Part shown: positions 8,684 through 42,799 of the stretch, piece by piece
Layout of the letters: each line of letters begins with the position of its first letter
How positions within the stretch are numbered: the first letter of the stretch is position 1
Assembly (NCBI RefSeq): GCF_000617845.2
Contig: NZ_DF820425.1
Span: forward strand, 4,949,725 to 5,013,724
Source of the DNA: Bradyrhizobium sp. DOA9
GTDB lineage: Bacteria; Pseudomonadota; Alphaproteobacteria; Rhizobiales; Xanthobacteraceae
Reading direction: 5' to 3'
DNA length: 64,000 nt
Position numbers and translations under genes: made by a program
Notes under the pieces: generated by a model
Told to the model about the DNA's origin: nothing
Database searches by the model: none
What the model saw: only the letters and a program-made list of their open reading frames with translations

Positions 8684-8713
8684 TTGACAAGCCCCGGCAT
8701 TCGCATGTATTGC
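8684..8713 (+). promoter_or_regulatory. Probable sigma-70 promoter of the argD leader
   Basis: A perfect -35 TTGACA at 8684-8689 is followed 17-18 bases later by GTATTG/TATTGC as a -10. The predicted start lies near 8719-8721, one to three bases before the leader-peptide ATG at 8722. The leader would therefore be leaderless or nearly so, as known for the trpL leader of Sinorhizobium. Confidence 0.6.
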
Positions 8714-8721
8714 CGCGCCCC

Positions 8722-8811
8722 ATGATCAACCGGACCAACCAGCGCACCGCAATGCTCCGTCGTCGCTCCCGCGACGATGAGAGGGTGCGCCATGTCCGAC
8801 GACGCCGCTGA
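8722..8811 (+). CDS. Arginine-rich leader peptide upstream of argD
   Basis: This 29-codon frame encodes 12 arginines, including RRR at positions 13-15 and RRRR directly before the TGA stop. The last 19 residues read [19 protein letters not shown] and hold 10 of them. A second in-frame ATG at 8752 gives that shorter form. The gene that follows is an acetylornithine aminotransferase of arginine synthesis, with a strong terminator between. I read it as the sensor peptide of a transcription attenuator: ribosomes stall on arginine codons when charged arginine tRNA is scarce. The predicted start lies within a few bases of the first ATG, so translation may be leaderless. Not proven; see the pairing described in the attenuator entry. 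Confidence 0.75.
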
Positions 8812-8878
8812 ACCACTAAAATTCAGCCGAGGTTTTCGAGAAGGCCGCACCCGCAAGGTGCGGCCTTCTTGGCTTTTT
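8742..8878 (+). promoter_or_regulatory. Candidate arginine attenuator (mutually exclusive RNA hairpins)
   Basis: Four pairing segments can be drawn. Segments 1:2 pair GCGCACC (8742-8748) with GGTGCGC (8784-8790), enclosing CGTCGC-TCCC-GCGACG (8761-8776). Segments 2:3 pair GGGTGCG (8783-8789) with CGCACCC (8846-8852), the antiterminator. Segments 3:4 form the terminator at 8838-8878. Stalling at the early arginine codons (8731, 8743, 8758-8766) would mask segment 1, free segment 2 and prevent the terminator. Smooth translation would let 1:2 and 3:4 form. A small extra hairpin, GCTGAA (8807-8812) with TTCAGC (8822-8827), straddles the leader stop. Confidence 0.7.
8838..8878 (+). terminator. Intrinsic terminator in the argD leader
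   Basis: AAGGCCGCACC (8841-8851), loop CGCAA, GGTGCGGCCTT (8857-8867): an 11-base perfect stem extended by flanking pairs, followed by TTGGCTTTTT. It lies after the leader-peptide stop and about 35 bases before the argD start, so it would block argD unless prevented. Confidence 0.9.
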
Positions 8879-8914
8879 GCGCCCGTCTTCCACCCGCCTC
8901 CAGAGGAGTACGAC

Positions 8915-10105
8915 ATGACCACGCATCCGTATGACGCGCTGATGGACATCACCGCACGGCCGAAGACCGTGTTCGTCCGCGGCGCCGGCTCCTACCTCTG
9001 GGACGACGGCCGCAAGCGCTATCTCGACTTCGTGCAGGGCTGGGCCGTGAATTGCCTCGGCCACTCCCCGCCCGCGATCGCCGACGCGCTCGCCGCGCAG
9101 GCCAAGCGGCTGCTCACGCCGAGCCCGGCCTTCTACAACGAGCCGAGCATGAAGCTTGCGCAGGCGCTGGTCGAGAACAGCGCGTTCGACCAGGTGTTCT
9201 TCGCCAATTCGGGCGCGGAAGCCAATGAGGGCGCGATCAAGCTCGCGCGCAAATATGGCAGCCTGCACAAAGGCGGCGCGTTCGAGATCATCAGCTTCGA
9301 AGGCGGCTTCCACGGAAGGACGCTGGCGACGATGTCGGCCTCGGGCAAGAAGGCGTTCGAGCCGCTGTTCGAGCCGAAGGTCGCGGGCTTCAAGAAGGCC
9401 AAGCTGAACGACATCGCCTCGGTGGAAAAGCTGATCAACGCCAACACCGTCGCCGTGATGCTCGAGCCGATCCAGGGAGAGTCCGGCGTGTGGCCTGCGA
9501 CCGATCAGTTCCTGCAGCAGCTGCGCGCGCTGACCGAGGCGCACGGCCTGTTGCTCATCCTCGACGAGATCCAGACCGGCATGGGCCGAACCGGAAAGTT
9601 GTTCCATTATGAGCACACAGGGATTGCGCCCGACATCATGACGCTCGGCAAGGGCATCGGCGGCGGCGTGCCGCTCGCGGCCCTGCTCGCGACCGAACGC
9701 GCCTCATGCTTCGAGCACGGCGACCAGGGCGGCACGTTCAACGGCAACCCGATCATGTGCGCGGCAGGCCTTGCCGTGCTTGAGGAGATCAAGAAGCCCG
9801 ACTTCCTGAAGCAGGTGGCCGAGACCGGCCTCCTGCTCGAAAGCGAGCTGCAGAAGGTCTCGGCCCGGCATGGCCTCGGCGGCGTGCGCGGGCGCGGCCT
9901 GCTGCTCGCGCTCGACCTCAAGCTGCCGATCGCACCCGGCATCGTCGCGCAGGCCTTCGAGGCCGGCGTGCTGCTGAACGCCCCGCAGCTCGACAGCTTG
10001 CGCTTCATGCCGGCGCTGAATGTCACGAGGAGCGAGATCGCCGAGATGATCGAATGTCTCGACGCGATTCTGACCAAGGCCGGCGCGGCACGGCGGGTGG
10101 CGTAG
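8915..10105 (+). CDS. argD: Acetylornithine aminotransferase
   Basis: ArgD is a class III PLP aminotransferase that converts N-acetylglutamate semialdehyde to acetylornithine in arginine synthesis, and it often also acts in lysine synthesis. The 396 residues show the family landmarks: [20 protein letters not shown] for cofactor binding, [18 protein letters not shown] with the PLP aspartate, and TLGKGIGGG with the Schiff-base lysine. The start at 8915 has AGAGGAG seven bases upstream. The frame is open back to 8777, but that stretch is the attenuator RNA. No argF follows; a repeat and a convergent gene come next, so this is a single-gene unit. Confidence 0.93.
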
Positions 10106-42723: not shown

Positions 42724-42799
42724 GAGCGCGTAGCTCAGCCGGTAGAGCACGTGACTTTTAATCACGGGGTCCTGGGTTCGAGCCCCAGCGCGCTCACCA
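42724..42799 (+). tRNA. tRNA-Lys (anticodon TTT)
   Basis: A 76-base cloverleaf. The acceptor stem GAGCGCG pairs with CGCGCTC. The D arm is GCTCAGCCGGTAGAGC, and the anticodon arm CGTGA-CTTTTAA-TCACG gives anticodon TTT. The T arm is CTGGG-TTCGAGC-CCCAG, and the CCA end is encoded (42797-42799). The accessory segment begins directly after it, as often happens when tRNA 3' ends serve as integration sites. Confidence 0.97.

Follow-up and report, generated by a model that had tools for sequence, protein, structure and literature searches.

The fungal arginine attenuator peptide is encoded by an arginine-responsive uORF before an arginine gene, as at the locus described here; unlike this locus, it is eukaryotic and translational and acts by nascent-peptide arrest at high arginine. 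In Salmonella, consecutive Arg codons of the speF orf34 leader sense arginine (PMC6386406). As described there, that leader differs from ours in preceding a polyamine gene, in working through RNase G and Rho and not an intrinsic terminator, and in encoding another peptide. Among Alphaproteobacteria, uORFC-8-2 before cysS in Rhodobacterales is, like our locus, predicted to be an attenuator and has codons for a single amino acid in pairs; it differs in that the amino acid is cysteine and the gene encodes a tRNA synthetase (PMC8632094). The trpL ORF of Sinorhizobium has been described as leaderless (PMC10117765). We recognised no arginine attenuator of this type before a bacterial argD in the literature searched, an earlier mention being possible, in line with the suggestion of an earlier note on this DNA that such an element may be new. 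Here we describe a region upstream of argD in Bradyrhizobium sp. DOA9 that is very probably a ribosome-mediated transcription attenuator, sensing charged arginine tRNA and controlling argD.

The features of the locus are collected in Table 1, with positions counted in the window, i.e., the whole stretch of 64,000 nucleotides that was analysed. The Arg-rich 29-codon frame and the TTGACA box that the earlier note had pointed out were both found on reading the sequence, the latter as part of a predicted promoter. Arg richness alone is indecisive, because 8 of the 532 ATG-initiated ORFs of 12-45 amino acids in this G+C-rich window (both strands, nested starts counted) reach at least 38% Arg, two of these being the leader frame itself and its internal start. 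The leader peptide, a very short query, matched no Pfam family at E 0.1, the DUF2618 peptide of the speF orf34 type included, and no NCBIfam family at 0.001. At the gathering score, the sole Rfam match in the whole window was a tRNA gene (42724-42796), and no T-box or riboswitch family of Rfam matched in it.

Table 1. Features of the argD leader region (positions in the window).
Feature	Position	Strand	Description	Basis
Intergenic stretch before argD	8645 (upstream ORF end) to 8915 (argD ATG)		holds promoter-like box, leader ORF and terminator	
Predicted promoter	8684-8711	+	TTGACA 8684-8689; -10-like TGTATT 8706-8711	sequence, conserved spacing
Leader ORF	8722-8811	+	29 codons, 12 of them Arg; Arg13-15 (8758-8766) as predicted sensor	
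Protector pairing	8731-8735 with 8794-8798; in the window also 8742-8748 with 8784-8790	+	CGGAC with GTCCG	fold; probability >0.5 in 78/84
Hairpin over Arg13-15 codons	8758-8766 with 8771-8779	+		94.9% of cells paired
Antiterminator (predicted)	8783-8791 with 8843-8852; 8795-8803 with 8832-8841; 8806-8812 with 8822-8829	+		folding; 89.2% of cells paired
Intrinsic terminator	8836-8879	+	stem about 8836-8850 with 8857-8871; short T tract to about 8878; G+C-rich	
argD	8915-10105	+	acetylornithine transaminase, class PRK03715	NCBIfam NF002985, 651.9 bits (cut-off 568); Pfam Aminotran_3

Related loci were collected from 60 genomes of relatives (ArgD at E 1e-100 in 33 of 60), from 198 genomes of the same family (26 of 198 at E 1e-90, 20 with at least 64% identity and 6 with about 45%) and, as a third source, from the best 80 loci in a search of genome contigs, among which the nearest named relatives of this ArgD are B. 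agreste, B. stylosanthis and B. iriomotense (95-96%). Matches without a locus, 3 of 33 in the set of relatives and 3 of 33 in the phylum set used below, stand outside the leader counts. Versions of the leader ORF were found in 102 of the 104 loci whose ArgD is at least 69% identical; some genomes were fetched twice, and once duplicates are removed the 104 loci reduce to 84 leader regions, 72 ORF sequences and 60 peptides. One of the two exceptions (L149) has a leader of its own, MLNLANRNRRRRSPAALARAR followed by a stop, and a terminator, both read by eye. At the other (L070), the leader ORF is lost and the 5' part is replaced by a transposase-like end while the terminator is kept; argD would be left there with an unregulated terminator or a new promoter.

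The pattern of change within the leader ORF is indirect evidence that it may be translated. In the 84-row alignment, each of the 153 gap runs within the ORF spans 3 bases, and 3' of the leader stop gap runs of 1, 2, 3, 4, 5 and 6 bases occur. The spacing of two conserved ORF motifs is a multiple of 3 in 83 of the 84 rows, and the true distance in the 84th (L130) is 60. ORF length as a multiple of 3 was discarded as evidence, being true by definition, and indel lengths were used instead. Residue conservation was counted over 83 rows (L031 left out): Arg is invariant at positions 4, 8, 14, 23 and 26, Arg13, Arg14 and Arg15 are present in 82, 83 and 82 rows, and Arg27, Arg17, Arg28 and Arg29 in 81, 54, 54 and 75 rows, respectively.

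The distance from the end of TTGACA to the leader ATG is 30-33 bases in all 84 leader regions, and a Shine-Dalgarno match of at least 4 bases precedes this ATG in 1 of 84. Before the argD start a match of 4-6 bases is present in 84 of 84, with AGAGGAG lying 5' of the ATG in the window. The -35 spacing and the near absence of a Shine-Dalgarno sequence fit a leaderless ORF, and transcription would be expected to start at or next to the leader ATG at 8722.

The argD frame is open upstream to an ATG at 8777, within the leader ORF, so gene callers may place the ArgD start too early. We rejected an N-terminal extension of ArgD from 8777, given the Shine-Dalgarno sequence at the later start in every leader region and a distance from leader stop to argD that varies widely (99-138 bases). 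These observations bear on the reading that the region is such an extension (8777-10105), or a chance Arg-rich frame in G+C-rich DNA beside an ordinary terminator, which we regard as most improbable. It can draw on the open frame and on the 131 of 3000 random windows that hold an RRR-containing uORF, and it has to face the conservation, the 3-base indels, and the shuffles and background controls given below.

All three mutually exclusive pairings proposed in the earlier note are complementary in the window, and each was modified on comparison. The upstream pairing of 8742-8748 with 8784-8790 is not general, other alignment rows differing there, and in our models CGGAC:GTCCG appears to be the more general protector. 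Pairing of 8783-8789 with 8846-8852 covers part of a larger predicted antiterminator, which includes a second helix and a hairpin over the stop codon. The terminator, placed at 8841-8851 with 8857-8867, is present with its T tract before argD and has a longer stem. More specifically, the antiterminator is an interrupted long hairpin in which GGGTGCGCC pairs with GGCCGCACCC and TCCGACGAC with the conserved GTTTTCGAGA, followed by the stop-codon hairpin; codons 26-27 and GTTTTCGAG would thus be conserved because they are part of it.

The terminator core was located in 84 of 84 leader regions, and its 17 double-change cells were reached by 0 of 500 shuffles. The hairpin over Arg13-15, analysed in 41 of the 84 rows, has 3 double changes, a count that 2 of 500 shuffles equalled or exceeded. 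Covariation in the antiterminator is modest (84-row alignment, 82 distinct): 15 double-change cells were reached by 21 of 500 shuffles, the 2 pairs with changes on both sides are not above shuffles (475 of 500 gave at least as many), and a single pair is disrupted in 53 of 82 rows. Because this covariation is too weak within the genus, the case rests on conservation, stall profiles and recurrence.

To follow the effect of ribosome position, the A-site was placed at each codon in turn. For each placement, the RNA 3' of the ribosome was folded as far as the 5' arm of the terminator, and we calculated what it would cost to free this arm. In the window the cost is 7.4-7.7 kcal/mol at codons 1-3, rises to 10.7-17.7 kcal/mol at codons 4-17, passes through 9.1 and 6.2 kcal/mol at codons 18 and 19 and lies at 1.8-4.1 kcal/mol from codon 20 to the stop, with 4.5 kcal/mol for the RNA without a ribosome. 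The mean profile of the 84 leaders has the same shape and, as modelled, is that of a textbook attenuator. In three leaders (L001, L030 and L023), none of 60 shuffled ORFs each reached the stall contrast; among 60 synonymous recodings of each, 0, 2 and 0 did so, respectively.

This profile bears on which Arg codons act as the sensor. The earlier note had pointed to the RRRR just before the stop, which we rejected as the sensor: the terminal run is part of the antiterminator's 5' strand, a ribosome at this point would cover the antiterminator and is predicted to give termination, and the last two Arg codons of the run are variable. The model instead points to RRR at codons 13-15 as the predicted sensor. 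With a ribosome placed in this RRR and the 3' arm of the terminator still unmade, the 5' arm is held by the leader in every one of the 84 cases. All 84 full-length RNAs form the terminator when folded without a ribosome. As long as the 3' arm is missing, CGGAC:GTCCG forms in 11 of 84 leaders versus 78 of 84 in the full RNA, and the 5' arm is mostly paired, though weakly held, in 62 of 84 without a ribosome and in 25 of 84 with a ribosome at the stop. The models thus reproduce the protector feature of attenuators in part.

We propose that transcription begins at or next to the ATG of the leader ORF and that, if the leader is translated in step with transcription, a shortage of arginyl-tRNA would stall the ribosome at Arg13-15 (or at Arg4, 8 or 17). 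The downstream leader would then adopt the long antiterminator fold, sequestering the terminator's 5' arm and letting transcription run into argD. When no ribosome is present, the upstream pairings would also favour the terminator in the finished RNA. A leader that reads Arg codons might instead exert its main effect through the stability of the mRNA, through Rho termination or on the translation of argD. A model for this is Salmonella orf34, the known leader ORF of speF in which Arg codons follow one another (PMC6386406); we consider it very unlikely here, since a strong intrinsic terminator is present in every one of the 84 leader regions, its 5' arm pairs with the leader, and the argD ribosome binding site lies beyond it.

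Similar leaders were also seen in other lineages. Searches for argD of the PRK03715 type gave matches in 11 of 289 genomes from the same taxonomic class, 5 of these matches being over the curated cut-off, in 33 of 398 genomes of the phylum, and in 22 of 150 and 8 of 369 genomes around a Burkholderia-like genome, some genomes recurring among the samples. Among 52 distinct upstream regions of distant PRK03715 argD genes (56-69% ArgD identity), an RRR-containing uORF precedes the gene in 24, together with a terminator in 23; the corresponding counts are 131 and 44 in 3000 random windows taken from the same loci, and 2 and 1 at 48 other aminotransferase loci. The automatic test found no RRR uORF at 28 of the 52 distant loci, 5 of which have an RR leader by eye; RR-only leaders are missed by this test (L184, L185, L197, L202 and L203), as is, among the near loci, L149. 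No leader was seen at the four loci of genus g405 (L163-L165 and L167) nor at L177-L182 and L204-L209, among others.

The distant leaders, for example MNRIQSELRRRRSPLP, MLSLQTNLRRRRSLLP, MNKLSNIPNLRRRRT and MSPRTRICVSRRRACI, each ending at a stop, resemble one another in little more than their Arg run and their location ahead of argD. Their ATG is preceded, at a distance of 4-11 bases, by a -10-like box of varying quality, and a Shine-Dalgarno match of at least 4 bases was found in 2 of 28. The stall test was applied to 32 leaders (3 near and 29 distant). Its measure is how far the cost of freeing the arm when the ribosome sits on the Arg run exceeds that at the stop and without a ribosome, and each leader was compared with 100 shuffles. 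In 27 of the 32, at most 5 of 100 shuffles were as high (Fisher 1.7e-22, a combined value that overstates the evidence because related leaders are not independent). Four leaders were not significant (L160, L197, L210 and L196, with 18, 11, 7 and 6 of 100 shuffles as high), and one, L077, contradicts the model (100 of 100). Chance RRR uORFs with a terminator from the same DNA passed a like test (at most 3 of 60 shuffles) in 2 of 40 cases, and the contrast between 27 of 32 leaders and 2 of 40 look-alikes is the safer reading. One leader (L200) has two candidate frames, and the putative terminators of L074, L077 and L096 have poor T tracts.

On the ArgD tree 16 changes of leader label are needed, at least 10 of them forced by well-supported branches, suggesting that leaders were often gained or lost; the count took L150 as having none, although the leader of L074 is also present upstream of it. 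The Arg codons and alternative pairings, for which conservation was to be expected under the earlier proposal, are kept in Bradyrhizobium and neighbouring genera and also, with quite different leader sequences, in other Proteobacteria.

The Burkholderia-like leaders coincide with an RNA family already in Rfam. Of the 18 loci given to the search, 3 (L158, L159 and L161) matched RF02884 (BcKCsr7), a family filed as an sRNA; the matches begin shortly 5' of the leader ATG, cover an RRRR leader ORF and end at the terminator, immediately upstream of argD. In the window, the covariance model gave no match at the gathering threshold, the leader there scoring below the family score. In a 2024 review, Bc_KC_sr7, nc5U30 and RIT34 are listed as names of a single RNA that is expressed in Burkholderia cenocepacia (PMC10987360), and a 2017 study reports 82 5' UTRs that yield short transcripts via processing or attenuation (PMC5688073); argD and arginine do not appear in the main text of the latter. 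The Rfam matches suggest that Bc_KC_sr7 precedes argD in B. cenocepacia itself.

An expressed sRNA raises the possibility that the main product is a terminated RNA or a peptide acting in trans, as claimed for rnTrpL and peTrpL of Sinorhizobium, and that attenuation is secondary. The expression listed for B. cenocepacia (PMC10987360) and the trans functions of trp leader products cited in PMC10117765 speak for this. We judge it very unlikely, since from one lineage to another both peptide and RNA sequence change completely, and what persists is the Arg run, its stall position and its location before argD; trans action would in any case be compatible with attenuation and does not exclude it. On the attenuation reading, we think it likely that the leaders form an unnoticed arginine branch, a common control of PRK03715 argD in ArgR-less Proteobacteria in which leaderless uORFs were kept or rebuilt many times with new sequences and an Arg run at the stall position, BcKCsr7 being the terminated product.

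The argD with this leader is one of two in the genome, since a second argD is present that is 45% identical, belongs to class PRK01278 and has argF (ornithine carbamoyltransferase) directly 3'. Upstream of this second gene (L138, upstream of 1447; G000:C1:1749010), a perfect hairpin, GTGCCGCC...GGCGGCAC, with a T-rich tail lies directly 3' of a -10-like box, and a similar hairpin was seen before argD in L132-L136. A DNA search of the same genome for a second copy of the leader returned only the locus itself and two short matches to its upstream flank, and no plasmid-borne ArgD relatives were found at E 1e-100. An argD of the PRK03715 class with at least 64% identity is present in only 20 of the 198 genomes of the family, suggesting transfer of argD, perhaps with its leader, or many losses.

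The repressor ArgR (PF01316) was not found in the genome itself (0 of 1) nor in 52 genomes with and without the leader (0 of 52), while 9 of 14 control genomes matched. Because ArgR was not found in these lineages, the attenuator bears on how these bacteria sense arginine and, in a rhizobial host, would provide a link to nitrogen metabolism. If our proposal is correct, arginine would become a further amino-acid signal of classical ribosome-mediated attenuation in bacteria, and an Rfam sRNA family seen in Burkholderia would gain a function. Moreover, leaders with different Arg runs would offer a natural series to test how stall position sets termination.

In summary, the resemblance to trp/his-type attenuators claimed in the earlier note is borne out in silico by a leader ORF with an Arg run, a terminator and a predicted stall-dependent antiterminator. 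With such systems, e.g., trpL/rnTrpL of S. meliloti as described in PMC10117765, the argD leader shares a short ORF with codons for the end product and a terminator before a biosynthetic gene, and would also share an antiterminator freed by the stalled ribosome and a probably leaderless ORF. As a predicted attenuator, it differs from them in the much longer Arg-rich peptide in Bradyrhizobium and in its signal and target, Arg codons and argD.
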